This document shows, piece by piece, positions 48 to 36,769 of a stretch of DNA of 64,000 nucleotides (position 1 is the first letter of the stretch; each line of letters begins with the position of its first letter). A model generated the notes under the pieces. The model did not search any database and was not told where the DNA came from. It was given only the letters and a program-made list of their open reading frames with translations. The position numbers were made by a program, and so were the translations under genes. Origin of the DNA: an uncultured Parabacteroides sp. GTDB lineage: Bacteria > Bacteroidota > Bacteroidia > Bacteroidales > Tannerellaceae. The stretch spans positions 1-64,000 of the forward strand of contig CALUZR010000008.1 of assembly GCA_944325335.1 (NCBI GenBank). The letters are read 5' to 3'.

Positions 48-932
48 CTACCCACATTGATTTTCCGCTGACCCAATTTCTTCCCGTAGTGAAACCGGTT
101 TCAATACTTCTACATTTTCCCGATTTCATAAAATTTGTTGAATAAAATCATACGATGGGCGGAAATAATATTGGAAAATAGCATAATCTTTCCCTGTTTC
201 AATTTCTTTTTGTGAATCATGGAGCGGCAGGGAACGGATGTAATCTACTTGCTTATTGTACACTTTTAACCAAATGGTTTGCGGTTGCTTATCATCTCGA
301 ATAATGCCATAACACCCTTCGTAAAAGGCTTGGGGCGTAAGGTTAGATGAAGGTTGAAGTTCCTTTTCACCCAGCGTAAGATGTTGCATCCGTTCTAAGG
401 CTAAGACGCGCGTCTGGCTCCGGTCGGTAAACTCGCCAATCAAATACCAGCGTTGTTCGAACAGGCGGACAAAGGCCGGAATCAATTCAAAATGAAACGT
501 GCGGTCTTTCGTATAATAAGAAACGTAATCAAAACAAAGCGTGCGCCCTTGGTCGATGGCATTCAATACAGTATGAAGTAGTTCCACACCGGTGGGCGGG
601 TTTTGGAGCATGATTTTATCCTTATGCTTAATCGCCATCGTCGATAAATTATTAATATGGAAGCTACTCAATAGATACCGGTAAATTGGATTCTCTTCAA
701 TTACTTCCTTATTCTGAAGTACATACTTCCGGATGCGCGCGTCATATTCAATGTCGATTTGAAACGACGAGGCAATAAATTCCCGGTCGCGGTTAAATGT
801 CCGTTCCGAAATCTCCTCGCCATCGTAATTCAATGAATACTGTTTGAAGCGTGCGTTCAACTCTTTCAACGAGAAATTCCCATACTCATTGAACTCATTC
901 ACAATCCAAAGACAACGTTCCCACTTTTGCAT
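48..932 (-). pseudogene. WYL-domain transcriptional regulator, interrupted by an in-frame TGA
   Basis: The open part runs from the ATG at 932 to a TGA at 126-128 (268 residues). It has an N-terminal DNA-binding region and a WYL domain (WYL at residues 162-164). WYL proteins are ligand-sensing regulators often found beside defence loci. Reading on in the same frame past the TGA gives 25 more codons to a TAG at 48-50. They include VEVLKP and SLREEI, the usual end of this family. The gene therefore seems to have lost its last ~25 residues to a point nonsense mutation. It could still be partly functional, or the TGA could be a sequence error. It points away from the cassette that starts at 1367. 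A -7-like TATCTTTG lies at 956-963 on the minus strand, just ahead of the start. Confidence 0.8.
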
Positions 933-955
933 ATCCTTCTTTTTTATTCTTTTTG

Positions 956-963
956 CAAAGATA
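956..963 (-). promoter_or_regulatory. Bacteroidetes-type -7 box for the WYL gene
   Basis: TATCTTTG matches the TAnnTTTG -7 consensus and lies 24 bases ahead of the WYL start codon. No convincing TTG -33 element is seen at the usual spacing. Confidence 0.5.
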
Positions 964-1060
964 CATGCTTAGGTCGGACACTTTCTGGCAGAGACAGGAA
1001 ATAATTTTGCAGTGTTGGAAAAAAATAAGGACAAAAGCAGCTTTTTATACCGCTTTTCAC

Positions 1061-1342
1061 TACCTTTGTACCAATTCCGACCGAAAGCCGCGCGTGGCTT
1101 CGATGGAAGGACATAATGAAAAGCGAAAAAGCGTTTACGATATTATTCCCAACACTGGAAATCGCCAATTTTCACCTTATAGGGGAATAATGACACAAAT
1201 GCTTGCGCTCTACTGTATAACTCCGTGAAAGGATTTCTTACAGCATAGAGTGCGGGCTGTTGTCTTTATTATCTCTATAAAAGGTGTTTGGCGATACCTC
1301 AGTGTTGGATAGTAGAGTAACAGTTCCCGCGCTTTTTTTATT
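1061..1342 (+). ncRNA. Leader element C: promoter, ~265-nt leader and intrinsic terminator
   Basis: Seen: TACCTTTG at 1061-1068 (-7 box), then about 260 nt without a convincing gene, then a terminator. The terminator arms are at 1250-1261 and 1319-1332, followed by seven T at 1333-1339. The next gene starts 27 nt later. The 5' part (GTGGC, a purine run, ACATAATG, then GCGTTTAC) resembles leaders A and B at 22.6 and 24.6 kb. The 3' end (ACAGT, TTCCCGCGC, T-run, ATTGTT) does too. Inferred: a divergent third member of that family, acting as an attenuator-like leader or free small RNA. Short hypothetical frames inside it look like noise. Confidence 0.4.
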
Positions 1343-1366
1343 GTTGAATTTGATAACTTGATTGAT

Positions 1367-2911
1367 ATGGAAACAAAAAAAATGAAAATTGAATTGAATC
1401 AAGAAGAGGCTCAACTTCTTGATGAATTGAATGTATTACAGAAAAAAATTGGAGAATATGATCCTGAAGAAATGAATCGAAAGATGTTTGATGAATTACA
1501 AAAGGCAGCTATTGATTCTTTAGCTGTCGCATTGAATATTTCGGATGTATTAGAAACATCTTCTACAATCTCTTCGAATATTGATGATTTTAAAAAAAGG
1601 AAAGACCTAAGTACTGGGGAATTGAAAGGAAAAACTTTTGGAGATACCAAAAAAAGTATGTGTGAAAAAGCGGGAAAAGACGGAAGTGGAGCGCGAGAAC
1701 ATTTTGTTGATTATATGACTGGCGAAGAGTTGATAGGCGAAGATCCTGAAAAAGGAAATTATGATTTTGATCATGTGATTTCTGCAGAAGAAATGAAATA
1801 TGATATATTAGCCGGAATTTTTATGTCAGATGATGAATTTAGAAAATTTCTAAACTCAGAGGAAAATATAGCGCCTCTTAATAGGGATATAAATCAAAAA
1901 TTGAAGAAGGTTAAAACGTGGAAAGAGTTTGAAAAATGTTTAGATGAACCATGTAAACAAGATGCAACAAAAACTAATGCAGAATATTATGGAATAGATA
2001 AAAAACGTGCGTTTGATAGATATAAAGAGAGTCGTAAAGCATATTATAAAGTAATAGGTGGAAATGCTGTTAAAGCTATAGGTGGTTATGCTATAAAAAT
2101 GACTGTTTTTAAGTTTGTGAAAATTGTTGTTGTTGAAATTATTCATGAATGTAAGTTGAGGTCAGAAGATAGTATTACAAAAAGGATGAAACAAGTTGGG
2201 AAAAGGATAATTTCTCGAATATCTGAATTAGTAGATACATTTAAGGAGTCTGCATTGGCTAATTTGGTATCGACACTTATGGATATTACTATTAATTTCT
2301 TTTTAAATACAACAAAACGTGCATTTAAAATTATTCGACAAATATTTTCTTCAATATTGAGCGTCTTTAAAACTTTATTTGACACTTCTAAATCTTCAGA
2401 AGAAAGAATAAAAGCCGCATTAAATATTTTGGGTGTAGCCTTAATTGGTATTTTAGGTATTCTGTTAGAGGAAACAATTAATAAAGCATTATTAACTATT
2501 CCTTTTCTTATTCCATTTGCTGATTATATTTCACCTGTCCTTGCTGCTTTAATTACAGGAATTGGAGGAGTTCTTATATTACAGTTGTTTGCAAGGCATC
2601 AGGCTGATATGGAGTATTGTAAATTGACGCAAAATGCTTCTGCAGTTCAAAAAAAATTGAATGAATTGAAGATAATAGATAGTGGTATAAGTAATATGGA
2701 GGTAGTAGAAGCTGTACATACGTCTATTTCTATATTTGGTAATACCTGTTATATTGCATCAGCTTGTGAAAAAGAGATAGCAAATACATTATCCAATATA
2801 CATGCTGGGAACTCAGAGAGAAAAATGATTTTGAATGAAACAAATAATAATCTAAATGATATTGATAATTTATTAAATCAAATGAATAATAAAAATTTTA
2901 GTCATGAGTGA
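1367..2911 (+). CDS. HNH-nuclease-like protein with membrane segments
   Basis: No named family is recognised. After an N-terminal helical region, residues 115-180 resemble an HNH/McrA-type fold: FVDYMTGEEL, then DFDHV (133-137), then NIAPLNRDIN with conserved-looking asparagines. DH...N...N is the usual metal-binding/catalytic pattern, but the assignment is by eye. Residues ~240-260 and ~345-410 are hydrophobic and likely span the membrane. The C-terminus is helical. The ATG at 1367 was chosen over an upstream TTG in frame. The gene is very AT-rich compared with flanking core genes, which suggests transfer. It is first in the cassette behind leader C and overlaps the next gene by 8 bases. A nuclease tied to the membrane would fit a phage-defence effector; that role is inference. 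Confidence 0.6.
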   Translation: METKKMKIELNQEEAQLLDELNVLQKKIGEYDPEEMNRKMFDELQKAAIDSLAVALNISDVLETSSTISSNIDDFKKRKDLSTGELKGKTFGDTKKSMCEKAGKDGSGAREHFVDYMTGEELIGEDPEKGNYDFDHVISAEEMKYDILAGIFMSDDEFRKFLNSEENIAPLNRDINQKLKKVKTWKEFEKCLDEPCKQDATKTNAEYYGIDKKRAFDRYKESRKAYYKVIGGNAVKAIGGYAIKMTVFKFVKIVVVEIIHECKLRSEDSITKRMKQVGKRIISRISELVDTFKESALANLVSTLMDITINFFLNTTKRAFKIIRQIFSSILSVFKTLFDTSKSSEERIKAALNILGVALIGILGILLEETINKALLTIPFLIPFADYISPVLAALITGIGGVLILQLFARHQADMEYCKLTQNASAVQKKLNELKIIDSGISNMEVVEAVHTSISIFGNTCYIASACEKEIANTLSNIHAGNSERKMILNETNNNLNDIDNLLNQMNNKNFSHE

Positions 2912-3653
2912 GATAATTCAACAATATAATAATTCTATAGATCCTGTAAAACTTGCAGGAACTTTATTGAAATTGCAAAATGAACTTGAGAATACAGAAA
3001 AGGATATACAACTGGTGTATAAAAAAATAATATCAGCAAATAGTCCGATAGAACAAGCTCTACAAAAATATGCAGAAACATTTAAAATATTCAACTTTGA
3101 TACTAAGGTAAAAGTTAAGTATCTAATTGAAAGAATGAATATCGAAGATGTTGTGAATTTAATTTCAGAGGTAGAGAGTGTTGATACAGAAAAAATGGCT
3201 TCAATTGCTCATATAATAAGAGCAAGTAATGAAAATATGAAAAAAATGTCTCAACTAATATCTGGACTTTCTATTTTGACTGGTATGAATTATCAGAGAG
3301 TGAGAAATATTTACACGGTATTAGCTGATTTAGATAAAGAGATGGAATCGAATATTTATGCTTCTAATAGGACCTCTGCTCAGTTGAAAGAGTTTATTTA
3401 TGGACAGTTCAATAGAATGTATGAAGATAAAATTAATCATGATAATTTATCTTCTAAATTAGATTTATTAGAAAAAACGATGAATTCTAATACAAAAGGA
3501 ATTATTAATGCTAATGATAATCTCAAACTAAAAGCTGAGGAATTAGAAAAACGTACAGAACGTAATTCCGTAGAATTGAAAAAGTGGAAAGTAGTTTCTT
3601 ATCTGTCATTAGCTGTAGCTTTTGTTAGTATTTTATTATCTTGCTTTCTTTGA
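2904..3653 (+). CDS. Coiled-coil protein with C-terminal membrane anchor
   Basis: Unrecognised protein of 249 residues. It is almost entirely helical and charged, with likely coiled coils at ~25-50 and ~190-225. One hydrophobic segment at the extreme C-terminus (~229-248) suggests a tail-anchored protein facing the cytoplasm. It overlaps the HNH/membrane gene by 8 bases, so the two are probably translationally coupled and may form a complex. Like its neighbours it is AT-rich. A structural or sensor partner of the upstream protein is the simplest reading, with no direct evidence. Confidence 0.6.
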   Translation: MSEIIQQYNNSIDPVKLAGTLLKLQNELENTEKDIQLVYKKIISANSPIEQALQKYAETFKIFNFDTKVKVKYLIERMNIEDVVNLISEVESVDTEKMASIAHIIRASNENMKKMSQLISGLSILTGMNYQRVRNIYTVLADLDKEMESNIYASNRTSAQLKEFIYGQFNRMYEDKINHDNLSSKLDLLEKTMNSNTKGIINANDNLKLKAEELEKRTERNSVELKKWKVVSYLSLAVAFVSILLSCFL

Positions 3654-3783
3654 TTTATTTTATGGGTTAGGTCATATTTGTCTGACTTATTCATTCTTTT
3701 GAATATGATATAACTTCCGATGAGAATCATAAAAAAGATAATAATGAAGAAAATACAGATTTTAATAGTAAAGTGCTTAGATT

Positions 3784-4518
3784 ATGTTTCAGAAAAAGTA
3801 TTTAGAAGATCCTGATTTGGTATTTTTGCCAGAATGTTCAAATGAAGATTTGAAAACATTCGCTGATTTATTGGTTTATGATAAAGATGATAAACCAAGA
3901 ATCACTGAAGAGTTATCAAAAACTCGTACTTACAAAGAGTTTTATCCGAGAGAGATGAAGCAAATTTGTAAGGAAATTGTCCATGAATTTCAATTGTTTG
4001 GAGGTGATACGGTTGCTAATGCAATTCGTGGTCATGGAATTCTTTATCGTAATATATTGATGGATGTATGCGATAGGAAAAAAGTGAATTACAATAAAAA
4101 CTCTTCTACAGAACGTATTGAAATGTGTTTTGTTCAACGAGTTTTAGATGATGCTTTGGATCAAATGGGAGATGATGAAATCAAGGAAATTGCAAAAGAT
4201 TTGCGTATAGACGCAACCAAGTATGATAACCAGAATGCATTGAAAGATGCAATTGTCATGGTTGGTTTATCTCCTCAATTTGTAGGAAAGATTGTATCTA
4301 TTTGTGCAAAAGCAATTGTCCCTCGGATTGGCCTTGCATTAGGCGGTATTGCTGTAGGACAGGCTTTAGCTAAATTAGTTCCTATTATTAATATAATTTC
4401 ATGGGGACTTTTGGCAAAGGAATTAACAGGTCCAGCTTATCGAGTAACAATGCCTGGGGTAATGATGATTATTTATATGCGCCGTAAATGGCAGGATGCA
4501 CAGAATGGGAATAATTGA
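3784..4518 (+). CDS. UPF0174 / YaaW-like protein (DUF3944)
   Basis: The N-terminus has the DUF3944 pattern: DPDLVFLPECSNEDL, then FADLLVYDKDDK. It is followed by the UPF0174 core FGGDTVANAIRGHG and YRNILMDVC. Near the C-terminus is the family's GPAYRVTMPGV. E. coli YaaW shows the same blocks in the same order and a similar length (about 240 residues). The region 175-215 is hydrophobic and could insert in a membrane. The family's biochemical role is not established. The 130-base gap upstream holds no clear gene. A hairpin follows the stop codon. Its place between membrane proteins of an AT-rich cassette suggests a role in the same system. Confidence 0.75.
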   Translation: MFQKKYLEDPDLVFLPECSNEDLKTFADLLVYDKDDKPRITEELSKTRTYKEFYPREMKQICKEIVHEFQLFGGDTVANAIRGHGILYRNILMDVCDRKKVNYNKNSSTERIEMCFVQRVLDDALDQMGDDEIKEIAKDLRIDATKYDNQNALKDAIVMVGLSPQFVGKIVSICAKAIVPRIGLALGGIAVGQALAKLVPIINIISWGLLAKELTGPAYRVTMPGVMMIIYMRRKWQDAQNGNN

Positions 4519-4531
4519 AAATAGTTAGATG

Positions 4532-4554
4532 GGTCGGACTACATCTATCCGACC
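4532..4554 (+). terminator. Hairpin after the UPF0174 gene
   Basis: The arms GGTCGGA and TCCGACC enclose a short loop. No T-run follows, so this may be a weak terminator or an mRNA-stabilising hairpin that separates the upstream and downstream parts of the cassette. Confidence 0.4.
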
Positions 4555-4601
4555 TATCTCTTTCCTTTGCATCATAAACAAACATACAAAGGAAAAGGAA
4601 T

Positions 4602-5501
4602 ATGGATACACAATTAATGCAACAACAGGTTGAGGCAATAGCTCAACGAGATGATTTGCCAGAAAGTTTGACTTGTTCTTGTGAGTTATTTCTTTCGATG
4701 CTGGAGAATCTGAAAGGGAATTTATCGGATGCTTCCTTTTTGGAAATATTGAATACGGTATGCAATAAACTGGAACCGAATCCGGATAAATTAAAAGCGG
4801 CTACTGTAATTGATGTGTTATTGACGGCATCGCTCTATTACCAGAAAGCACGTCTTTATATTTGGCAATGGGCTACCTATCATGTGGATTTTAGTTTGTT
4901 GTTATGGGAAGCTTATAATCACTTGATGGATTGGTATGAAGAAGAAACAGATGATTCGTTTGATCGTGTTTTTTATTCGGATAATTTCTTTAAACAATTT
5001 ACTTTGGAGACGAGAAAACGTACTTATTCCCGTTTCAACCTATGGCGGAATGCAATCAAACAGTATCGTATATTATTGAAGCATGATTTGACGCGTTTAG
5101 ATAGCCAAATGAAAAATGCGTTTGACAGACATCGAAGAGAAATGTTTATTTGCAGCCATCCATTAATAGGAAGTACATTTTCTATAATTAGCGGATTAGT
5201 GACTATATCAGGAATTTTTCTGTTTATTTCTATACTGCATTTCTTTTACCAGTTTTACGTCATAAAACCTTATAATTTATTATTAGCGAGTGCTGGATTG
5301 AAAGACTACAGAATGCCTTTAGGAGAATTATCTATTGCGCAACAAGCATTTTGGGAAAGAGGATTATTTGTATTAGGAGAACCCATCTACATTTTTCTTT
5401 CCGGAATCCTGGTACTTCTGCTTATAAATATCGTACAAGATAACTGGGGATGGAAGATCCTGTTTTCAATGAAATCCGAAAAATGTTCAACTAAAAAATA
5501 A
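4602..5501 (+). CDS. Hypothetical membrane protein
   Basis: Unrecognised 299-residue protein. Residues 1-180 look soluble and helical and contain a tryptophan- and tyrosine-rich stretch around 85-125. Two hydrophobic segments lie at ~190-215 and ~262-280, with a basic C-terminal tail. An A/G-rich ribosome-binding region (AAAGGAAAAGG) lies just ahead of the ATG. It is 6 bases from the Sel1 gene that follows, so the two are probably co-transcribed. Confidence 0.55.
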   Translation: MDTQLMQQQVEAIAQRDDLPESLTCSCELFLSMLENLKGNLSDASFLEILNTVCNKLEPNPDKLKAATVIDVLLTASLYYQKARLYIWQWATYHVDFSLLLWEAYNHLMDWYEEETDDSFDRVFYSDNFFKQFTLETRKRTYSRFNLWRNAIKQYRILLKHDLTRLDSQMKNAFDRHRREMFICSHPLIGSTFSIISGLVTISGIFLFISILHFFYQFYVIKPYNLLLASAGLKDYRMPLGELSIAQQAFWERGLFVLGEPIYIFLSGILVLLLINIVQDNWGWKILFSMKSEKCSTKK

Positions 5502-5507
5502 CGCAAT

Positions 5508-6560
5508 ATGAAAAAGAAAGTATTGATAGGTAGTTTATCTGTCTTGGTAATTGTATTGGGTATTTATTTTCTGTCCCCTTCAGCGGCAGATTATAATGAA
5601 AAGGCGGATGTTTTGTTCGATCAGATGTCGTATGCGGAGGCGTTCGATTATTATCGGAAAGCGGCAGAAAAGGAGGACGGACATGCCTATTATCGCTTGG
5701 GTGTTTTGTATCAGAAAGGTTTGGGCGTGCTGGCTTCCGAAAAGAAAGCGGTGGAATATTTTCAAAAGGCGGCAGATAAGCAGAATCCAGACGGACAATT
5801 TGAATTAGCTTACCATTATTTTAGCCAACATGATTATGAAAAAGCAAGGATGTATGCTGAGAAATCGGCAGCACAAAATTCTGCGGATGCGGCTTATCTT
5901 TTGGGACATCTTTATGAACAGGGAAAAGGCGTAGAAGTGGATTTGAAAAAGGCATTGGAATGGTATGAAAAAGCAGCTCCACAAAATGATGAAGCTAAGT
6001 TGAACGTAGCTATTTTCTATCTTCATGCGAAGGGAACAGATCCTGATTACGATAGAGCATTCCCCTTATTTGAGGAGTTGGCTCGAAAAGAAATGACGGA
6101 TAGCTATAATTACTTAGGTTATATGTATAATAATGGATTGGGTACTGCAAAAGATTTGGAAAAAGCCTACTTTTGGTATCAGAAAGGCGCGGAAGCAAAC
6201 GACCGGATAGCACAATACAATTTAGGTACCTTATTATGGTCTGGACAAGGTATCGGACAAAACCAAAAAGAGGCATTAAATTGGTTCCGCCAATCCGCAG
6301 CGCAAGGCTATAATCATGCGATTGAATTTGTTAAACAATATGAAGCGTGGGTGCGGCAAGAGCAAGCTCGGCAGGCCGAGGAACGTAAACGGAAATCCTA
6401 CGATGAGCCGCGTATTTGTCCGGGCTGTCAAGGTACAGGCCGTGTATTGGCTGGAACAGGTAAATGGGAAAATTGCGGGCTCTGCGGAGGCTCTGGCATT
6501 TTCCAATCTTTCTCCGGAAGATGGAAAGATATTATTGATGCGATGGATAATATGTGGTAA
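5508..6560 (+). CDS. Membrane-anchored Sel1-repeat protein with DnaJ-type zinc knuckle
   Basis: The N-terminal hydrophobic segment (~4-24) is a signal anchor. It is followed by about seven Sel1/TPR-like repeats (for example AYYRLGVLYQKGLG and AAYLLGHLYEQGKG) up to about residue 275. A basic helix then leads to CPGCQGTG and CGLCGGSG near 303-333, two CxxCxGxG zinc-knuckle halves like those of DnaJ. Sel1 repeats mediate protein contacts. The added zinc knuckle suggests binding of unfolded or partner protein. Several residues in the repeats are canonical, so the fold call is firm. The function within the cassette is unknown. Confidence 0.75.
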   Translation: MKKKVLIGSLSVLVIVLGIYFLSPSAADYNEKADVLFDQMSYAEAFDYYRKAAEKEDGHAYYRLGVLYQKGLGVLASEKKAVEYFQKAADKQNPDGQFELAYHYFSQHDYEKARMYAEKSAAQNSADAAYLLGHLYEQGKGVEVDLKKALEWYEKAAPQNDEAKLNVAIFYLHAKGTDPDYDRAFPLFEELARKEMTDSYNYLGYMYNNGLGTAKDLEKAYFWYQKGAEANDRIAQYNLGTLLWSGQGIGQNQKEALNWFRQSAAQGYNHAIEFVKQYEAWVRQEQARQAEERKRKSYDEPRICPGCQGTGRVLAGTGKWENCGLCGGSGIFQSFSGRWKDIIDAMDNMW

Positions 6561-6564
6561 CAAG

Positions 6565-7248
6565 ATGGAATTCAATACATATGAAGAATTAGTTGATTAT
6601 TGTTATCCATACAACAAGAATTTAGCTACAAAAGGGATTGATTGCAATCGCTTTAAATTCCTTTTAAATATAGAAAAAATATATCAACAAGTAGTAGATA
6701 AGATTTCGTTGTTATTGGGTATCAGAAGGAAGACGAAAGTGATTATATCTCGAAATTCAAAATATTGGGGACGTTGTTTTTGTTCATTTAATGTAATAGA
6801 ATTAGATGTAAGTCTTATCTGTTATCATCCTTTAGTTTTGACAGAGGTAGTTATTCATGAATTAACGCATTATAAATATCATAATCATAAACCGGAGTTT
6901 TATTTAGGTATGGAAAAGTATGTACAAATCTTAGGACTACAAGATAGACTGTATGGTTTCACAAATAGAGGAAAATTTCCTACTTCTATAGATGCTTATT
7001 GCAATGATTATTTATCTCCAACACCACCTATATTCTTATTTAAAAGAATACCATCTTTAGAGATGATTCGTTCTTTTGTATTAAAAAATAAGATCAAAAT
7101 AAAGAAAGATGATATTTGGAATATTTTAGATTGTAGTCATTTGTATGATTCTCGGCAAAGAGTCCGTAACCCAGATGATGCATGGTTTGAAAAGATTATA
7201 GGAAAAGAAATAAAGTCGAATTACCAACAACTTTTATTATTTGAATAG
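6565..7248 (+). CDS. YgjP/DUF45-type metallopeptidase-like protein
   Basis: The core is VVIHELTHYKYHNHKPEFY. HELTH at 98-102 gives the HExxH zinc site, and His108 the likely third ligand. A YWGRCF block at ~68-73 matches the YgjP/WLM family. The usual family length is about 230 residues, as here (227). A longer frame running back into the Sel1 gene is unlikely; the ATG at 6565, 4 bases after the Sel1 stop, gives a family-like N-terminus. The remaining ~90 C-terminal residues are not recognised. It is followed 3 bases later by the FtsZ-like gene. A protease acting on a partner in this cassette is a plausible role, not a demonstrated one. Confidence 0.7.
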   Translation: MEFNTYEELVDYCYPYNKNLATKGIDCNRFKFLLNIEKIYQQVVDKISLLLGIRRKTKVIISRNSKYWGRCFCSFNVIELDVSLICYHPLVLTEVVIHELTHYKYHNHKPEFYLGMEKYVQILGLQDRLYGFTNRGKFPTSIDAYCNDYLSPTPPIFLFKRIPSLEMIRSFVLKNKIKIKKDDIWNILDCSHLYDSRQRVRNPDDAWFEKIIGKEIKSNYQQLLLFE

Positions 7249-7251
7249 ATT

Positions 7252-7716
7252 ATGTCTACATTAATATCTATCGGAACAGGAGCTTGCAATATGACCATGT
7301 ATCATTTGCAAGATAATTTAAATGCAGAAGTTGAGTATGTTTTTATCGATCCTCTCAATGGAAGAGACTATGATGAAAGTATATTAGACAAACTCGAAAA
7401 GACTGGCGAAAAGGCTGTATTATTTGCTACCTTGGGTGGCAATACAGGTTCTTCTTTTGCTACGAGAATTTCTTCTGATTTGAAAAGCAGAGGAATTAAA
7501 TTTCGGGCAATTCTTACTTTGCCTTTTGTTTACGAGGGTAGAGAAATGATTACAAGGGCATTGTCGGCACATCAGGCTATTTCGGGAAATGCTTCTTCCT
7601 TGAGTGTATTCAACATGGAAAAATATCGAATGGAGTATGGCCATCTGCCTACACGTGAATTCTTTCAAGTTGTTGATACGCAGATTTTAAACACAATCTC
7701 ATTGTATTTCTATTGA
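7252..7716 (+). CDS. Miniature FtsZ/tubulin-like protein (GTPase half only)
   Basis: The protein is 154 residues; FtsZ is usually ~320-400. The pattern follows the FtsZ nucleotide-binding domain. ISIGTGACN (5-13) matches the glycine-rich first loop. VEYVFID follows in the place of the FtsZ strand 2. LGGNTGSS (61-68) replaces the tubulin signature GGGTGTG, and LTLPFVYEG follows, like the PF-FEG strand of FtsZ. The T7 loop and C-terminal activation domain are absent, so polymerisation-driven GTP hydrolysis in the usual way is unlikely. It could bind nucleotide or interact with cellular FtsZ. The fold call is by motif order only. It is the last gene of the AT-rich cassette. Confidence 0.6.
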   Translation: MSTLISIGTGACNMTMYHLQDNLNAEVEYVFIDPLNGRDYDESILDKLEKTGEKAVLFATLGGNTGSSFATRISSDLKSRGIKFRAILTLPFVYEGREMITRALSAHQAISGNASSLSVFNMEKYRMEYGHLPTREFFQVVDTQILNTISLYFY

Positions 7717-16526: not shown

Positions 16527-19412
16527 TTAAAATAAAGTTCCTTTAACTGCGTTTTCTGAGACTTTATATAGCTCACAAATTTCCGTAATAGTAGCACTAT
16601 TACGTTTCAAACTATCAAAATCTATCTCACCCAAGAGTATATACTCCCACGTCCGGTTCATCCGGTCGCCGGGACGGAGTTGGTTGATCTTCTTGCACCA
16701 CTCGACCGTAGCCAATTGTTTTTGCCTAACGTTCTTGTTATGCACTTGCTCTTGTCCCTTCGTCTCGATGATATAGATATGTGTATCCGTGCAAACCAGG
16801 AAGTCTGGGTGATAAGTCGCCAGCAAGCCATCCACGCGGATATAGTAGATCGAGGCGAACCGATGCTGGCTCTCGTTAATCTTGATGAAGCTGTTGACCT
16901 CAGCGTCCATATCCAGGTATTCCATGAAAGCTTTCTCGAACCCGCCTTTGTTGGAAGGATAGCCCACTCGCTCGTAGATGGTTTTCTCCAGCTCCAACGA
17001 GAAACTCTCCCGTACTTTCAGCGTGGGGACGGAAGAGAAATAAATCTTCTCCACGACCGCTTCCGTTACGTTCACCTGATCCTGCATATAATAGATGGCT
17101 CTCGTGATCTCACGCACGATGTGTTGCGTGGCGACCCCGTTATAATGCAACAGGATTTTCCAGTTGAAGTTCTCGAACGGGTTGAACGGGCAGGAGAACA
17201 ACCGGGTACGAATGTACATGTCGATTGTCCGGATAATCTCGTGCTGATTGATTTGTATCGTGGGCAGTTGCTTATCTTTGGTATTGCCTCCGCCCATCTT
17301 GTCGAAGCGGGTCGTGACGATGCGCAGCAATTTTTGCAAGTACTCGTTATAACTCTCCGCGGTGAACAAGTCCGCCTGCACCTTGTATTTCCCGAATTGG
17401 GTTTTAACTGGGATAGCCTCGGAGATGAAGGTCTCGCCCGGCTTCACCAAAAACTTTTTCAATTCGTCCAGTGAGTAAAGGGTAAACGACTCTAATGTTT
17501 CTATGTCGATGACGGAAGGCTTCAGCTCCTCTTCTTGCTCTTTGATAATCAGTGGCCAGAATAGGTCGTAATCCTTGTAATTCTCTTTCAGGCCTACTTT
17601 TATCAAGTCGCCTACCACGTTGGTACCGTTCGACAGCTCGCTCTCGTCAATGCCCGCCAGGCCACCTTCCATCAAGTCCTCGTAAAATTGGAGGAACGCG
17701 GGGTGCTCAATGATGGACAACATATCCAGATACGATTTCGGGGCTTTTCGCTCTTTCAGCACCAACCGGCGGTTCATTTCTTTCTCCTCTTGATATTCCG
17801 GTTCCCGCCACATCAAGCGCAAGCCTCGCCCGATGGTTTGCTCTAACAGGATGGCGGATTGCGTGGAACGTAGGGGCACGATAACACAGATGTTATTCAC
17901 GTCGAAACCCTCGCGCAGCATCAATACGGAGACAATCACTTTCGGTGACTCGTAGCGGTCGATGTTGAACAATCGTTCCTTGATGGGCAACCAGTCTTTC
18001 TCCTTCACCTCTCCCTTGGCGTTGCTGTCGATACGCAATACGTCGTCCGCCGCCAAGCCCTCCTCTTTCAGGAACGATTCCACGAAGGGTGTCACGTTCG
18101 TGTCCTCGCAAATGACCATCATCTTGGGATGCTTCTTGGCCTCCAGCTTCGTAAAACCTTCCTCTAAGATTTGCAGTTTGCGCAACCCGGCACGAAGCAT
18201 CAATCGTTGTCCCTCGCTCAAGCCGATTACCTTGCGCCCGTCGCGCACGGCGTTATAGTCCAAGTTGCCCAACTCGGTCAGCTCTTGCCGGCGGTCCAGC
18301 AATAATGTCTTAACCAATCCCATCCGCATAGCGACTTTCAGGTCGAAATCGGTGACGATATGCGGGAAGAATACCTTCGTTCGCTTCTTGCCCGAGCCGA
18401 CCGTGTCGTACGGCGTGGCGGAGAAGTCGATTTGGAAGAACCGCTCGCCTTTGTTTTGTGCGATTTTGTTCAATCCCTTCTGCCATTCCACCTCCTCGAT
18501 CTCGCCTTGTACCTTGTTCTCGTGGATATGGTGCGCCTCGTCGTTGATAACCATCAGGTCGGGCAGGTCTGCCAAGTATTCCAACTCGCTGCCCCGCAGG
18601 TAATGGCGGTCTAAAGCGTCCAGCATATTTCCGCCACTCGTACCGGGTCGGATGGGCAGGATGTCTTTGATAATGGCAGGTGCTCCTTCCGGATTCGCCT
18701 CTTCCTCATCCTCGTCGGAAAGGAACAGGTGCCAGTTGGTGAGGGCTATCAGTCCGTTGCCTGTCACTTTCCGCCCGATGCCTTCCTCTTTCGTCACCAC
18801 GTTGTTTTGTACGAAAGAGAACACCTCGTCTTGGTAGGCGGGCGGGACAAAGAGGTCTTTGTGTTGGTAGAGGTCGTTCGTGAACAAATCCCGCTCGCCG
18901 CCGTTCTCCTTCATCCGTCCGCAGTAAGCGTCTTTCAGGCGGTCGTAGACAATCAAGCCGGGGGCTACGATCAGGAAGTTTTGCGTATAGCGTCCGCTCG
19001 GCTCCTCCTCGTGGCGGGCATTCAGCAACTGCCAGAGGAGCAGGGCGTGCATGACCCACGTCTTGCCCGTACCGGTCGCCATCTTAACGGCATATTTCGG
19101 TATCCGGTATTTCGCTTTTGCCAAGTCCGTCAGGTTGCATTCTGCCAATAAGTCCTCGTTTACCTTCTCGTAAATCTCTTGCACGCTGCGGATGCCTAAG
19201 ACCTCGTGCAGATAGATGATGTTCAGGATGCTTTGTTTCTGTCCGATATGGAAATTCTTGCCGCGCTCCTCTGTATAGGGCTCCATGAACCAGTATTTCA
19301 ATAGGTCTTGCGTGACGGGTGTCACAACATCCAGCATGCTACCGTCCTCAAACGCTTCCTGTACTTGTTCCGTCAGTTGTTTCGCCAACTCTAAGGATAT
19401 ATCGTTTCGCAT
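16527..19412 (-). CDS. res: Type III restriction enzyme, Res subunit
   Basis: The 961-residue protein has the usual length and motif order. The superfamily 2 ATPase has Walker A ATGTGKTW (~112-119), motif II INDEAHH (~290), motif III FSATP and motif VI IGRGLRL. A C-terminal PD-(D/E)xK nuclease is seen in HPDFLVCTDTHIYIIETKG. With Mod it recognises an asymmetric site and cuts ~25 bases away when two unmethylated sites oppose each other. It begins 13 bases after mod, in the same operon. The GC content is high over the ATPase region, unlike the flanking hypothetical genes. Confidence 0.92.
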   Translation of the reverse strand: MRNDISLELAKQLTEQVQEAFEDGSMLDVVTPVTQDLLKYWFMEPYTEERGKNFHIGQKQSILNIIYLHEVLGIRSVQEIYEKVNEDLLAECNLTDLAKAKYRIPKYAVKMATGTGKTWVMHALLLWQLLNARHEEEPSGRYTQNFLIVAPGLIVYDRLKDAYCGRMKENGGERDLFTNDLYQHKDLFVPPAYQDEVFSFVQNNVVTKEEGIGRKVTGNGLIALTNWHLFLSDEDEEEANPEGAPAIIKDILPIRPGTSGGNMLDALDRHYLRGSELEYLADLPDLMVINDEAHHIHENKVQGEIEEVEWQKGLNKIAQNKGERFFQIDFSATPYDTVGSGKKRTKVFFPHIVTDFDLKVAMRMGLVKTLLLDRRQELTELGNLDYNAVRDGRKVIGLSEGQRLMLRAGLRKLQILEEGFTKLEAKKHPKMMVICEDTNVTPFVESFLKEEGLAADDVLRIDSNAKGEVKEKDWLPIKERLFNIDRYESPKVIVSVLMLREGFDVNNICVIVPLRSTQSAILLEQTIGRGLRLMWREPEYQEEKEMNRRLVLKERKAPKSYLDMLSIIEHPAFLQFYEDLMEGGLAGIDESELSNGTNVVGDLIKVGLKENYKDYDLFWPLIIKEQEEELKPSVIDIETLESFTLYSLDELKKFLVKPGETFISEAIPVKTQFGKYKVQADLFTAESYNEYLQKLLRIVTTRFDKMGGGNTKDKQLPTIQINQHEIIRTIDMYIRTRLFSCPFNPFENFNWKILLHYNGVATQHIVREITRAIYYMQDQVNVTEAVVEKIYFSSVPTLKVRESFSLELEKTIYERVGYPSNKGGFEKAFMEYLDMDAEVNSFIKINESQHRFASIYYIRVDGLLATYHPDFLVCTDTHIYIIETKGQEQVHNKNVRQKQLATVEWCKKINQLRPGDRMNRTWEYILLGEIDFDSLKRNSATITEICELYKVSENAVKGTLF

Positions 19413-19425
19413 GGTCTTCCGTTTT

Positions 19426-21471
19426 TTAAGATTGAACCGTTTCTGTTACCACACTCTCGAAACCGAACACATCGACCGCCTTCACGCAGACCGTCCGCCG
19501 CGCCTTGCAGGGAACAATCAACGAAGCTTGGTAGACGCAATGCAGTGGGTCACTGTCGTTCGCCGTGTTCTCGCGGTAGTCCTGCCACTGGCTGCGGAAG
19601 GTCTCGCCATCATAGTCGGGGTCTACGCTCCAATACTCAATCAACGCAAGTGGGTCCCGCTCCATGATTTGCTGTAGCTTCGGTTTGTCTTTGTCGTCTA
19701 ATGGGATATTGTCGGGCGAGAGCAGAACGTAATTGTCTAATCGCACCGTGATCTCCTCTTGGTCGTTGTAGGGCCTGACCGTTATCGGGCGAATCATCAG
19801 GTATTGCAGCGTGCTGAAGCGCACCGAACCTTCGCGTATCAACTTGTCGTACCCCTTTTTCGAGAGTTTGTCCAGCAGGTCGGGCGGGATGACCAGCACC
19901 TCCACATCCTCCTTGTATTGCTGGATGGCGGCGGAGATGTCGAACGCGAAGTTCCACGCCAGCACGACCACCTTGCTCCAGCCTCCGCCTAATAGCGAGC
20001 CCTTCGCCTCCTTCGCCTTGCGGATGGTCGCCGCGCCGGTCATCTTGTTCGGGCTGTCCACATAGACCAGCGTGCGGCTGCTCTTGACGTAGCCCCAGTT
20101 CCGGTCGTTCAGCTGCTCGGCGGAGAAAGGGATGGCACCATAGAGCTGCATCACGATTTGGCTCAAGTCGCCCACCCGCCGGTATTGCTTATTGCCGCTG
20201 AACGCCTCTTTCTGGTAATCGCCGATACACTGGTAAAGGAACGGCTTCACCTCTTGGTCGATAAACCGCTTGCGCATCACCAAAATAGCCGGTTTCCCGA
20301 TATCTGTCGTAATCCACCGCCGTCCCAACCGCTCGGCAACGGCTGCCGTCGTTCCGCTTCCGCCAAAGAAGTCGCAAACGAGGTCGCCTTCGTTGGAGGA
20401 GGCTTTGATAATGCGTTCGAGAAGGGCTTCGGGCTTTTGAGTTGAATAACCTGTAATTGCATCATTGTTATTTCCCATACCTAAAATATCAGTCCATATA
20501 TTGTCTGGCGTTTTTAATTCCACGATTTTTCCATTTCTTGTTTCTCTATAGGCTTTGATTCTGATATTTCCTGCAGTTGTTTTTACAGAACTTCCATTAA
20601 TAACCAACTTGCCTCCATTAGTAACAAATATTCTATTCTGTTTAGCTAATTCTATTATACTTTCATCAGTATAATCATTTCGTGCACTTGTAACAAAATA
20701 TCCATAAGAATCTTTTTGATATCCGTATTGTTTATAATCTTTTTCTAGTATGAACTCCTCATATTTTATGTCGTTCCCATTCCAAACAGCCAAATCTGAT
20801 TTTGAGTATAAAAACAAATAATCAGAATTAAATGGATAATAAGTTGCATGAACTTTCATTCCCCTTATTACACCACGCTTCCACGTTATTTGATTTTTAA
20901 AATACTCCTTTCCAAATACATCATCCATTATCACTTTCACATAAGCTCCCACATGCCAATCAATATGCACATAAATACTTCCCTTATCCGAAAGCAACTC
21001 CCGCATCAACACCAATCGAGGATACAACATCTTCAAATAAGAAACCGTTCCATCTTGCCATGTATCCGAATAAGCAAATTGCTCAATAACGGTCGGTTTC
21101 TGCTCGATGTCGATGCCCGGCAGATTAATCTTTGTCCGATAATCCGCTTTGCTATCGAAAGGCGGGTCGATATAAATCAAATCCACCTTGCCACGCAACG
21201 AAGGCAAACCCGTCGCCTCGTCCCCGGCTAACAGGGCTTGCATGGCAAGGAGGTTATCGCCATAAATCAGGCGGTTCATCCATTCCTTATTGATTACCTG
21301 CTCGTTCCGTCCCTTCCACAAACCGGAAGTATCTTTCGACGGTAACACCAATTCATTCGTCTGTAACCCGATACGGGTACTGCTGCTCAAACGCTCCATA
21401 ATGCGTTGTGCTTCTTCTTTTCCCTGCTTGACGATTTTAGGGAGTTCTTCTATAAGGGATTTTGTAGGCAT
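19426..21471 (-). CDS. mod: Type III DNA adenine methyltransferase, Mod subunit
   Basis: The 681-residue protein has motif IV DPPF at 102-105 (IYIDPPFDSKAD) before motif I, DFFGGSGTTAAVAERLG, near residue 365. This is the order of beta-class N6-adenine methyltransferases of type III systems. The segment between them (target recognition domain, bases ~20460-21060) is much more AT-rich than the rest, which suggests that the specificity region was exchanged by recombination. Mod alone protects host sites by methylation. With Res it forms the restriction complex. Confidence 0.92.
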   Translation of the reverse strand: MPTKSLIEELPKIVKQGKEEAQRIMERLSSSTRIGLQTNELVLPSKDTSGLWKGRNEQVINKEWMNRLIYGDNLLAMQALLAGDEATGLPSLRGKVDLIYIDPPFDSKADYRTKINLPGIDIEQKPTVIEQFAYSDTWQDGTVSYLKMLYPRLVLMRELLSDKGSIYVHIDWHVGAYVKVIMDDVFGKEYFKNQITWKRGVIRGMKVHATYYPFNSDYLFLYSKSDLAVWNGNDIKYEEFILEKDYKQYGYQKDSYGYFVTSARNDYTDESIIELAKQNRIFVTNGGKLVINGSSVKTTAGNIRIKAYRETRNGKIVELKTPDNIWTDILGMGNNNDAITGYSTQKPEALLERIIKASSNEGDLVCDFFGGSGTTAAVAERLGRRWITTDIGKPAILVMRKRFIDQEVKPFLYQCIGDYQKEAFSGNKQYRRVGDLSQIVMQLYGAIPFSAEQLNDRNWGYVKSSRTLVYVDSPNKMTGAATIRKAKEAKGSLLGGGWSKVVVLAWNFAFDISAAIQQYKEDVEVLVIPPDLLDKLSKKGYDKLIREGSVRFSTLQYLMIRPITVRPYNDQEEITVRLDNYVLLSPDNIPLDDKDKPKLQQIMERDPLALIEYWSVDPDYDGETFRSQWQDYRENTANDSDPLHCVYQASLIVPCKARRTVCVKAVDVFGFESVVTETVQS

Positions 21472-26485: not shown

Positions 26486-26643
26486 TCGCATGTGTTTTTT
26501 GTGTGTTGTTTTCCCTTCGTACATTTGGGCAAGAAAAGATATTTTAATGATGACAGATTTCATTATACACGCATACGGATGGCAAGAGTTGGCTATCGAG
26601 TATGCAACGGATTTAAATTCTGAGCCGGCTGCCAAGCAGCTGG
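26486..26643. repeat. First copy of ~157-bp direct repeat (promoter plus DUF4248 start)
   Basis: Matches 26739-26895, an offset of 253 bases. It includes a -33 TTTG, a -7 TACATTTG (26520-26527 here, 26774-26781 in the second copy) and the first ~32 codons of DUF4248. Confidence 0.8.
26547..26643 (+). pseudogene. Truncated DUF4248 gene copy
   Basis: The frame starts MMTDFIIHAYGWQELAIEY, as in the intact gene 253 bases downstream, but loses similarity after AAKQLD. The frame stays open beyond this point without family likeness. It is a duplicated and decayed copy that keeps its promoter. Confidence 0.7.
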
Positions 26644-26773
26644 ACAGGGGGAGTACGTATCACGGGGGAACTCGTCCGTGCTTTAATGTACTGGAGGTCT
26701 TGCGAGATAGCTTTCGCGGCTCTCCTACATTATATACATCGCATGTGTTTTTTGTAGATTGTTTTTCCCTTCG

Positions 26774-26781
26774 TACATTTG
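26774..26781 (+). promoter_or_regulatory. -7 box of the intact DUF4248 gene
   Basis: TACATTTG lies 18 bases ahead of the ATG at 26800, so the mRNA leader must be very short. A TTTG lies about 18 bases upstream of the box. Confidence 0.6.
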
Positions 26782-26799
26782 GGCAGAAAAGATATTTTA

Positions 26800-27021
26800 A
26801 TGATGACAGATTTCATTATACGCGCATACGGATGGCAAGAGTTGGCCATCGAATATGCACCGGATTTGACTCCGGAGTCGGCTGCCAAGCGGCTGAGCGC
26901 ATGGGTCGCGTACAACAAGGCACTCGTCCGCGCATTGGAGGAGACCGGTTGGAGGAAAGGGCAACGGGTATTGACCCCGCGCCAAGTGGGTATCATCGTC
27001 GAGTATCTCGGCGAACCTTAG
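26800..27021 (+). CDS. DUF4248 family protein
   Basis: Protein of 73 residues. The family pattern is clear: FIIRAYGWQELAIEYAPDL, then AAKRLSAWV, ALVRALEETGWRKGQ and TPRQVGIIVEYLGEP. DUF4248 proteins are small, probably DNA-binding proteins. They are regularly found beside VirE_N/DUF3987 genes in Bacteroidales, as here (600 bases upstream). The start is one of two adjacent ATGs. Confidence 0.8.
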   Translation: MMTDFIIRAYGWQELAIEYAPDLTPESAAKRLSAWVAYNKALVRALEETGWRKGQRVLTPRQVGIIVEYLGEP

Positions 27022-27274
27022 CAGGAAGAATTAAGTACCTACCCGTTTCCGAATGGGTAGGGACTTATTGGAAATTACATAGGGACTTATTTCGGAATAA
27101 TAAGGGATATATTCTGAATTAAGTCCCTTTTTTGGATATATGTGAGTGAAAAATACTGAAAAATCATCCTTTCATAGGCTTTTATGGTTAAATGTGGTTA
27201 ATATTTTAGGCTTATGGAATAGCTTATAACTTGTTGTATTATAATTGATTAGCTTATTTTTAAATTGGAGGGAA

Positions 27275-33621: not shown

Positions 33622-36600
33622 TTACGCTACCTCCTTGTATCTTGTATAGACATACTCATAGATTTTCTGCCGATATTCCGTTATGCTGTTTTCATCATAA
33701 CATTCCGGCAATTCCGCCCATAATGTGTCGCGAATCAGATTGTCTATCGCTGCTTTGGTTTCTTGCTTGTCTGTCCAATGGTCAAACTCGGCAATCTTAT
33801 TCTTGATTTTCTTAAGCAAATTGACTGCTACCTTTTTGATGCTTTCAATGTCCTTCTTACTCAGGTTGTCAGAGAACAGCAAATCGTAAACAGAAAGCTC
33901 TTCGTCGCTTTCAAAACCTTCGCGCACATAGCGTTTTTGCTCTTGGTCGAGGCTTTGCGACAATGCCATCAGTTCCATGAATGTCTTTTCTATGCTGGCG
34001 CGGTCTTGCTCGCTGTTGTAACTGTTGATGATTTCCGTGTATTTCTCATAAAAATTGATGCGCGTGGGATTGTTATGGAGCATTTGTTCAATCTTTTGTT
34101 TGACAAGTTCTTCCAAATCATTCAATACCAATCTGGGTGTCTTGGTTTTGGCGAACTCCTTGCGCAACAAGTCGAAATCAATCTTACTGATGTCAAATTG
34201 TTTGGCTGGTTTATTCTCATCACTCGGCACCACTTGCACATAGTCGTTTACTATCTTGTTGAGTTCTACCATCAAGTCGGTGTTGTCGGCGTGTTTGATT
34301 TTCTTATTCAGTTCTCCGCTTATAGCCGTGATGGCGTTCTTCTTCCTCAGCGTGAGGTCGTCCACTTCCTCGCGGTTGACATATTTGAACATGTTGGCTA
34401 ATTCGCTTGCGTATGTTTTGAATGTCTTTCGGCTTTCATTGGTTACGCATACGGCATTGGCTGCATCGCGCACCAAAGCCAGCTTGTCAAAGCCTGTGGT
34501 ATCCACTAACTTTTGGAGCTCAAAACCACATTGGGAAAGAAACGCTGTTGCCAAATCAATGGACTTTTCGATACGCTTTATCAGTTCCTCTTTGTCTATG
34601 GTAGGCGAACCGCCACCCGTACCGTTCTTCTGCATGGTATAGTCTGCCAAGGCTTTGCGTAACGCCTTTACAACGCCTATGTAGTCGATAATCAATCCAT
34701 TGCTTTTTCCTTCCGCCTTACGGTTTGCCCGGGCTATGGTCTGCATCAGCGTGTGTGCTTTCAATGGCTTGTCGAGATACAGGCAAGACAAAGTTTTCAC
34801 ATCAAACCCCGTCAGCCACATGGCACAGACGAACACCACCCGGAATGGACTGTCCGCTTGTTTGAACTCTTTATCGAGTGGGCGTTTCTCCATTTTCCTG
34901 CGATGCGGTTCTATATCCAATCCCCATTTTCTGAATGTCTGCATCTCGTTTTGCTCTTGGCTCACTACCACGCACATTTCCGTTTCGCGCAGCCACTTCA
35001 ACTTGCGGTCAAGTTCCAATGCCTCTTGCTGGGTGGCATGCTTGCGTTTTTCTTCGGTCTCAGCAATTACTTGCGACCAATACTTTTGCGCCAGGTTGTA
35101 CATCCTCACACAGGTCACTTTGTTGATGCAGACAAACATTGCCTTGCCGCTTGTCCAAAGACCGGTATAGTGGTACACAAAATCCTTTGCCACTTTGTCA
35201 AGGCGGTCTTCTGCCGTAAGCAGGTGTATCTCTTTGGCAAATTCCTTTTCGAGTTTTGCTTCTTGGGTTGGGTCAAGGTCTGCCTTTTCTATGGCTTCGG
35301 CTATGCGTTGGTTCAGTTCGGCATTGTCCTTATCCATTATGGGTATGTTCAATCGTTCGCCCCTGTTCTCATAGAACAAAGGCACGGTTGCGCCATCGTC
35401 CACAGCCCGGTTGAAGTCGTAAATGGAGATATAGCCGCCAAATGTCCGCTCTGTAATGTTGTCGTTGGCCAGCAACGGCGTACCTGTAAAGCCTATGCGC
35501 GAACAAGTAGGCAACAAACGGTGCATGTTCTCGGCATAATACCCGTATTGGCTGCGATGGGCTTCGTCCGACATGACCAGGATGTCATAATCGGGACGGA
35601 TAGGCTCTGCATCGGGATTGTTGAATTTCTGTATCAAGGTGAATAGGAAGCTGGGATTGTCTTTCAGCATGGCTATCAGCCTCTCGCCACTTGTGGCTAT
35701 GTACTTCTCGGCCTTGGTGGAGCCAAGCAATCCGCAGCCTTCAAATGTGCCGCTGATTTGTTCGTTCAATTCATCGCGGTCGGTCAGCACCACAATGGTG
35801 GGCGAACCTGCGAATCGGCGGCGTATCTTTTGGGCAAGAAACAACATCGAATAGCTTTTACCGCTGCCCTGCGTATGCCAAAACACACCCAGCTTGCCGT
35901 TTCGGAGCTTTCGCTCAGCATAAGCCTTGACAGCCTCGTTCACGCCGAGGTACTGGTGGTTACGGGCAAGAATCTTTGCCGTCCTACCTTCGGAATGGTC
36001 GTACAGGATGAAATTTTCCAGCAAGTCTATGAAGTTTTCTTTCCGGCAGATGCCGCGCAACATGGTTTCCAGTTCCACATTGCCCTCGTCTTCCTCTTTC
36101 AGGCGTTTCCATTCGTGGAAAAACTCCCACGGACTGCCCAATGTGCCTACCTTGGCTTCCAATCCGTTTGACAGCATGACAATGGCGTTGTAGTAGAACA
36201 GTTGCGGTATGGTGTCGAGATAGTCGCGGTAGTTGTCGTTATAGGCATTCTCCACCTCCACGGTGTTCTTTTTCAATTCAACGAACAGCAGAGGCAGACC
36301 GTTGACATAGCCCACGATGTCGGTACGGCGGCGGTACAGTTCACCGTGTATCTTCATTTCCTTGACGGCGAGGAAGTGGTTTTCCGTGGGTTCACCGAAG
36401 TTGACGAGCATGGCTTTGCGCGTGTCGGGTTCACCCTTGGCGTTTTTCACGGCAATGTCTATCCCGTCGCGTATCAGCCGGTACTTCTCTTCGTTTACCT
36501 GCATGAGCGATGCCGTAGAGAGCCGTGTTTCGAGCGTGCCGATGGCTTGTTCCACCTGCGTGTCGTTCATCCACGGGTCCAGTTTTCGCAAGGCTTGGCG

Positions 36601-36765
36601 CACATGGCGTTTCAGCAAAACTTCGCGATAGCTTTTGCGCCCGAATGTGCCGTTTTCGCCCAGCACTTCCTGATTGTAGGCTGTGGCCACATCCCAGCCT
36701 AATTCATCGTGCAGCAACTGGCCTGCGCTTTCTTGCACCAATATGTTTTCAGAATACTCGTTCAT
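33622..36765 (-). CDS. hsdR: Type I restriction enzyme, HsdR subunit
   Basis: The 1047-residue protein has an N-terminal PD-(D/E)xK nuclease (RRRTDIVGYVNGLPLLFVELKK region, ~150-172). The motor has Walker A HTQGSGKSYSM (~296), motif II MSDEAHRS, motif III FTGTP and motif VI IARANRKAEG. The C-terminal helical domain binds HsdM. HsdR pulls DNA through the complex and cuts when it stalls. It begins 4 bases after hsdS and is the last gene of the operon. Confidence 0.93.
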   Translation of the reverse strand: MNEYSENILVQESAGQLLHDELGWDVATAYNQEVLGENGTFGRKSYREVLLKRHVRQALRKLDPWMNDTQVEQAIGTLETRLSTASLMQVNEEKYRLIRDGIDIAVKNAKGEPDTRKAMLVNFGEPTENHFLAVKEMKIHGELYRRRTDIVGYVNGLPLLFVELKKNTVEVENAYNDNYRDYLDTIPQLFYYNAIVMLSNGLEAKVGTLGSPWEFFHEWKRLKEEDEGNVELETMLRGICRKENFIDLLENFILYDHSEGRTAKILARNHQYLGVNEAVKAYAERKLRNGKLGVFWHTQGSGKSYSMLFLAQKIRRRFAGSPTIVVLTDRDELNEQISGTFEGCGLLGSTKAEKYIATSGERLIAMLKDNPSFLFTLIQKFNNPDAEPIRPDYDILVMSDEAHRSQYGYYAENMHRLLPTCSRIGFTGTPLLANDNITERTFGGYISIYDFNRAVDDGATVPLFYENRGERLNIPIMDKDNAELNQRIAEAIEKADLDPTQEAKLEKEFAKEIHLLTAEDRLDKVAKDFVYHYTGLWTSGKAMFVCINKVTCVRMYNLAQKYWSQVIAETEEKRKHATQQEALELDRKLKWLRETEMCVVVSQEQNEMQTFRKWGLDIEPHRRKMEKRPLDKEFKQADSPFRVVFVCAMWLTGFDVKTLSCLYLDKPLKAHTLMQTIARANRKAEGKSNGLIIDYIGVVKALRKALADYTMQKNGTGGGSPTIDKEELIKRIEKSIDLATAFLSQCGFELQKLVDTTGFDKLALVRDAANAVCVTNESRKTFKTYASELANMFKYVNREEVDDLTLRKKNAITAISGELNKKIKHADNTDLMVELNKIVNDYVQVVPSDENKPAKQFDISKIDFDLLRKEFAKTKTPRLVLNDLEELVKQKIEQMLHNNPTRINFYEKYTEIINSYNSEQDRASIEKTFMELMALSQSLDQEQKRYVREGFESDEELSVYDLLFSDNLSKKDIESIKKVAVNLLKKIKNKIAEFDHWTDKQETKAAIDNLIRDTLWAELPECYDENSITEYRQKIYEYVYTRYKEVA

Positions 36766-36769
36766 GGTT

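Follow-up and report, generated by a model that had tools for sequence, protein, structure and literature searches.

A free-standing FtsZ-like N-terminal domain protein next to a JukA-type gene cassette in Parabacteroides

The window analysed here is a stretch of 64,000 nucleotides from a contig of an uncultured Parabacteroides sp. Near its start lies a run of genes on the same strand (1358-7716), flanked by a gene for a WYL-domain regulator in the opposite direction. The last gene of the run, hftsZ, encodes a half-size FtsZ-like protein. The genes are as follows.

126-932, minus strand: divergent WYL-domain regulator flanking the cassette (5.7e-10)
1358-2911, plus strand: variable 5' gene with a C-terminal membrane region, PADLOC candidate PDC-M40B (1.7e-26, residues 251-505)
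2904-3653, plus strand: coiled-coil-like protein with a C-terminal hydrophobic segment, also in the variable 5' part of the cassette
3784-4518, plus strand: JukA-like (DUF3944/YaaW) protein (PADLOC JukA 3.5e-49, residues 4-238; Pfam DUF3944 9.5e-13)
4602-5501, plus strand: helical membrane protein of 299 aa, found in Parabacteroides alone among the genomes searched
5508-6560, plus strand: Sel1-repeat protein with C-terminal DnaJ-like CxxCxGxG zinc motifs (Pfam Sel1 5.9e-47)
6568-7248, plus strand: YgjP-like zinc metallopeptidase (VIHELTHYKYHNH) of 226 aa (Pfam PF01863 1.7e-12)
7252-7716, plus strand: hftsZ, free-standing FtsZ N-domain protein of 154 aa, with an ATG start and a TGA stop

The region is AT-rich, with a G+C content of 28-42% against 46% in the whole window. 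The metallopeptidase ORF stops at 7248 and the hftsZ start codon is at 7252, which leaves the gap of three bases reported in the preliminary description. A promoter and terminator scan gave promoters not above those in shuffled sequences, and thus the operon structure is taken from gene order only. The product of the 1358-2911 gene has no Pfam match; an HNH-like motif, FDHV..N..N..K, was recognised in it by eye alone.

The ORF at 7252-7716 is a real gene and not a broken full-length one, since the FtsZ C-domain is not encoded downstream in any frame: a search of all frames in the window and in the homologous loci found none (best E 5.3; positive control 1e-97). The regular ftsZ gene of the host genome (433 aa, G000:C31) is located on a contig other than that of hftsZ. 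With this gene elsewhere and C-domain remnants absent, the reading of hftsZ as a full ftsZ that was truncated, frameshifted or misassembled is rejected. An origin from a phage or plasmid was also dismissed: there were no matches to plasmid sequences, in three scans of IMG/VR or to PHROG, and the search against phages gave a single weak partial match (32.9% over 70 residues, E 7e-3).

The resemblance of the protein to FtsZ exceeds chance by four routes, namely NCBIfam, PDB chains, profile-profile comparison and fold. Firstly, the NCBIfam FtsZ model TIGR00065 matches it at 5.1e-8 with 32.6 bits, below the equivalog score of 295 bits; the Pfam Tubulin match (1.3e-6) is likewise under the curated cut-off. 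Secondly, phmmer against PDB FtsZ chains gives 4.7e-7. Thirdly, profile-profile comparison with FtsZ gives 97% and 5.8e-11 over 142 columns; identity to the host FtsZ is about 22%. Finally, the AlphaFold (AF2) model, made from an alignment of the three half-size proteins described below with FtsZ left out, has a pLDDT of 84.4 and a pTM of 0.82, and all 50 of its 50 best Foldseek matches in PDB are FtsZ (E 1.3e-7). The TM-scores to FtsZ are about 0.60-0.73 by query length and the alignments are gapped, which fits the deletion of a segment. A different Rossmann fold, the alternative raised in the preliminary description, was checked for and not found. In a viral structure library the best matches are phage FtsZ/tubulins; cellular FtsZ match the protein better than phage tubulins do. 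Model, Foldseek and profile-profile comparison thus all point to a tubulin-type N-domain fold. By predicted fold the protein is a member of the FtsZ/tubulin superfamily, but it is not an FtsZ, as it has neither the T7 loop nor the C-domain.

Alignment with FtsZ of E. coli and of the host places the following elements, all on the plus strand.

7273-7290: T1-like glycine loop GTGACN (residues 8-13), where N13 corresponds to E. coli FtsZ N24
7351-7377: short S2-H3 link (residues 34-42) replacing H2-S3-T3 of FtsZ, so that the T3 (gamma-phosphate) loop is missing
7432-7455: T4, a variant of the tubulin signature, LGGNTGSS (residues 61-68)
7522-7539: T5, PFVYEG (residues 91-96), where E95 aligns to E. 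coli E138
7651-7710: last helix (residues 134-153), corresponding to H6-H7 of FtsZ; D142 aligns to E. coli N186, and the protein ends before T7

The order of the glycine-rich loop, LGGNTGSS and PFVYEG, and the end of the 154-residue protein before T7, agree with the preliminary description. A further motif, EYVFID (residues 28-33), lies between GTGACN and LGGNTGSS, and PFVYEG is followed by a VFNMEKY stretch and then by the last helix with D142. The position of E. coli N186 is occupied by Asp in Bacteroidales FtsZ. The predicted order of the domain is S1-T1-H1-S2 and then, after a shortened link, H3-S4-T4-H4-S5-T5-H5-S6-H6, with the chain ending in the first part of H7.

The protein ends within H7 and has no T7 loop (NxDxxD, which serves hydrolysis in trans) and no C-terminal domain H8-H10/S7-S10 or tail. 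A second deletion, not mentioned in the preliminary description, removes H2-S3-T3 from the S2-H3 region (about 30 residues, E. coli FtsZ about 47-85), so that T2 joins H3 directly; the T2 Asp is replaced. In contrast, most of the guanine-nucleotide contacts are retained. All three Parabacteroides half-size proteins have equivalents of E. coli G19, G21, N24, G105, G106, T108, G109, P134, E138 and N/D186, that is, the contacts of T1, T4, T5 (Glu) and H7 (Asp). The T4 sequences are GGNTGSS in the window copy and GGNTGSG and GGETGNR in the homologues, against the canonical GGGTG(S/T)G. The T6 Asn is uncertain: the window copy has M122 at this position and N121 beside it, so that the residue is either displaced or lost. 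In FtsZ the base is contacted by T1 and the ribose by T5, and the phosphates are contacted by T1, by T4 (alpha and beta) and by T2 and T3 (beta and gamma) (PMC8456036). On these roles and the alignment, the loops for the base, the sugar and the alpha/beta phosphates are kept, and those for the gamma phosphate and catalysis are gone. Discrimination between GTP and GDP may be lost, because neither the T2 Asp nor the T3 loop is present.

Full-length homologues of the protein were found in two other Parabacteroides genomes, with 161 aa (G030) and 155 aa (G002). Their identity is 32-33% with the window protein and 43% between the two, and all three share the places of start and stop. Thus half-FtsZ proteins occur in three of the 125 genomes of the family, and a scan of GTDB contigs returned the same two homologues only. 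In the tree the three form one clade outside all FtsZ (support 97/94) with long branches; the clade is supported, and the root and branch lengths are unreliable as to the origin of the family. Sequence comparison thus indicates that the three proteins are a family of their own and not fragments of host FtsZ.

Among 393 genomes of the order there is one distant addition, a half-FtsZ of 200 aa from another family (G180), and a phylum sample of 395 genomes contained no further ones at a cut-off of E 1e-12. The G180 protein (L054, 4185-4787) groups elsewhere in the tree and may be an independent case; it retains the S2-H3 length and has GTAGSY as T1. No half-size relatives of this type were found in 80 genomes, where the single frame of 212 aa sits at a contig end. 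The gene adjoins a YD-repeat-like gene and a moeB-like gene, and a recognisable defence locus is absent. In several Bacteroidales, FtsZ genes are paired side by side, one often being shorter (G057:C18, G050:C4, G114:C142, G117:C236, G137:C78).

The cassette upstream of hftsZ was found, by its membrane protein, in 10 of 149 relatives, all within Parabacteroides. A core of WYL, JukA, membrane-protein and Sel1 genes recurs, whereas there is variation at the 3' end and among the 5' genes (PDC-M40B, PDC-M09A/B). The WYL regulator has full-length homologues at six other loci (62-91%), and the Sel1/zinc protein is conserved in four other cassettes (63-86%). Half-FtsZ is present in two of the ten genomes with the cassette and missing from the other eight, and thus it is dispensable. 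The part at 126-6560, with WYL, JukA, the 299-aa membrane protein, the Sel1/DnaJ-zinc protein and exchangeable 5' effector genes, is a candidate defence system in itself. In another Parabacteroides (G015; L045, 13907-15217) the same cassette is followed downstream by a gene for WG repeats fused to a YgjP-like peptidase, with an AAA_21/15 ATPase and a further two Sel1 proteins nearby; a YgjP peptidase thus occurs a second time at loci of this type.

The half-FtsZ of G002 lies in a sister cassette (L010) with a JukA fragment, a YbjN/Sel1 protein, JukA, an M48 peptidase and the membrane protein; G017 has a closely related cassette without half-FtsZ. The fragment, an N-terminal DUF3944 part of JukA at 129-329, is directly upstream of the half-FtsZ gene, and an intact JukA is at 2309. 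This arrangement is a sign of cassette shuffling. The half-FtsZ of G030 (L009) ends a different cluster, with no JukA nearby. That cluster (148-7314) contains genes for a membrane-linked Arf-like GTPase, a colicin-type WHH nuclease, a hydrophobic protein, an IetA-like AAA ATPase and a DUF6557 protein, and is a candidate conflict system. Thus two of the three Parabacteroides copies are in the same cassette type and the third is in a nuclease/AAA cluster. The chance of finding two of three copies in the cassette is of the order of 1e-5, a rough estimate that takes the cassette as about 10 of some 3,000 gene slots.

Divergent families of the FtsZ superfamily are already known, some in multigene systems, and those compared here are full-size or larger. 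With FtsZ itself (TIGR00065) the protein shares the N-domain fold and the nucleotide contacts of T1, T4, T5 and H7, but it has no T3 segment, T7 loop, C-domain or C-terminal tail. FtsZl1 and FtsZl2 are divergent FtsZ-superfamily proteins (Makarova and Koonin 2010, PMC2875224). FtsZl1 is similarly a member of a multigene system and can be aligned in the front part of the domain only (PMC2875224). However, the FtsZl proteins are large, carrying inserts specific to each family and C-terminal regions that are coiled-coil or of other kinds, and in FtsZl1 the FtsZ-like domain is followed by a coiled coil and a helical domain; the hftsZ product, at 154 aa, is a bare N-domain with a deletion. The tubulin-containing GTPase conflict systems (PMC7159879) also place a tubulin-superfamily protein in a predicted conflict locus, but pair it with GAP1/TRAFAC GTPases, vWA or HSP70 and not with JukA, Sel1 and a zinc peptidase as in the window. 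As in Juk (JukA/JukB), the JukA-family gene of the window adjoins a membrane protein gene. However, the 299-aa protein has no JukB match in PADLOC, JukB being a pore-forming effector. In a test of its identity as JukB, confidence of the model was low over the membrane half, and the PDB search gave no significant match. Sel1, the peptidase and half-FtsZ are not among the Juk components in the accessible part of the description of Juk (PMC13282480). A literature search, with subscription papers mostly outside its scope, found no bare T3-deleted FtsZ N-domain tied to a JukA locus.

Two functions had been suggested in the preliminary description. That the protein poisons or senses host FtsZ is not demonstrated. 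The other suggestion, a divergent nucleotide-binding sensor, is the better fit, since it is the guanine and phosphate contacts that are conserved and the locus is Juk-type and defence-like, the latter having escaped the preliminary description; binding itself is predicted from the aligned residues. We tentatively propose, at somewhat less than even confidence, that the hftsZ product is a non-polymerising, guanine-nucleotide-bound switch or sensor, an accessory of a WYL-flanked, JukA-type anti-phage locus. In this proposal nucleotide binding, non-polymerisation, switching and the role in defence are all inferred.

The protein would hold GDP or GTP through T1, T4, T5 and the H7 Asp. With T3, T7 and the C-domain absent, it is expected neither to hydrolyse GTP in trans nor to build FtsZ-type filaments. 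As it has no T7 to supply, it could not activate hydrolysis in another FtsZ, which makes a switch or sensor likelier than a polymer; its own nucleotide would be hydrolysed only when a partner provides a T7-like loop. It would then be an optional part of the Juk-type locus, carrying GDP or GTP and, via the nucleotide face, a partner. Candidate partners are a protein of the locus and a tubulin-family protein of the host or of a phage. The nucleotide state or the partner would set the activity of the membrane, peptidase or nuclease effectors of the locus. JukA is described as a sensor working with diverse effectors (PMC13282480).

A bolder version of this proposal seems doubtful to us: the FtsZ/tubulin fold would have been cut down to a domain without T3 and T7 that serves as a guanine-nucleotide-gated subunit of JukA-type defence, possibly detecting or capping a tubulin-family filament of the host or phage. 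Tubulin-superfamily proteins are known chiefly as polymers. If the proposal is true, nucleotide binding would be uncoupled from polymerisation in a natural single-domain member that keeps the pocket and has lost what filaments and hydrolysis require.

Another reading, rather unlikely, is that the nucleotide face caps host FtsZ filaments at their T7 end, thereby arresting division as abortive infection, the neighbouring peptidase perhaps releasing or restraining the half-FtsZ. Retention of the nucleotide-binding half and loss of the T7 half is the geometry expected of a one-sided cap, and the N- and C-domains of FtsZ are reported to fold independently (PMC7320174; PMC7327170). However, the docking surface for the T7 face is largely lost. 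The FtsZ residues contacting the next subunit are L68, F137, K141, R142, L172, R174 and L178 (PMC7010359); in the window copy six of these seven are missing or altered, and F137, the remaining one, is Tyr. L68 is missing with its loop, K141 and R142, which in FtsZ lie opposite the catalytic aspartates of the adjacent subunit, are replaced by E98 and M99, and L178 by T134; the T3 loop is absent as well. The half-FtsZ homologues diverge freely at these positions, and identity to the host FtsZ is about 22%. These changes weaken the capping reading only in part, as some of the positions differ in the host FtsZ too.

It is unlikely that hftsZ is a passenger, a sporadic orphan in a gene-exchange hotspot unrelated to the JukA locus. 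The patchy distribution (3/125), the eight cassettes of ten without half-FtsZ and the G180 copy outside such a locus would be natural for a passenger; against this, two of the three genus copies share the cassette type, the third is in another nuclease/AAA cluster, and hftsZ follows the peptidase gene on the same strand after three bases. Still less probable is that the protein recognises a phage tubulin/FtsZ of the PhuZ type and, as a decoy or sensor, triggers or assists a Juk-type system. A JukA-family gene is in the same gene run, phage FtsZ/tubulins head the viral structure matches, and Juk in Pseudomonas acts on nucleus-forming jumbo phages (PMC13282480). However, cellular FtsZ are the better match, PHROG gives none, and the adjoining membrane protein is not a known JukB. 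A decayed, functionless relic of a full-length FtsZ paralogue, suggested by the loss of T3, T7 and the C-domain and by the weak FtsZ match, is very improbable given that three genomes carry intact ORFs of matching extent, about 33% identical, and given conserved pocket residues, a confident predicted fold and no C-domain remnants downstream.

Downstream of the cassette the window appears defence-rich (16527-40901). Putative genes of a type III restriction-modification system at 16527-21471 and of a type I restriction system with a Fic protein at 33622-40901 were read from the ORFs, and a second Sel1 protein is encoded at 23412. The ORF at 26490-27122 consists of two halves that look like the same DNA in different frames (IWARKDILMMTDFIIHAYG and FGQKRYFNDDRFHYTRI), which suggests a local duplication.
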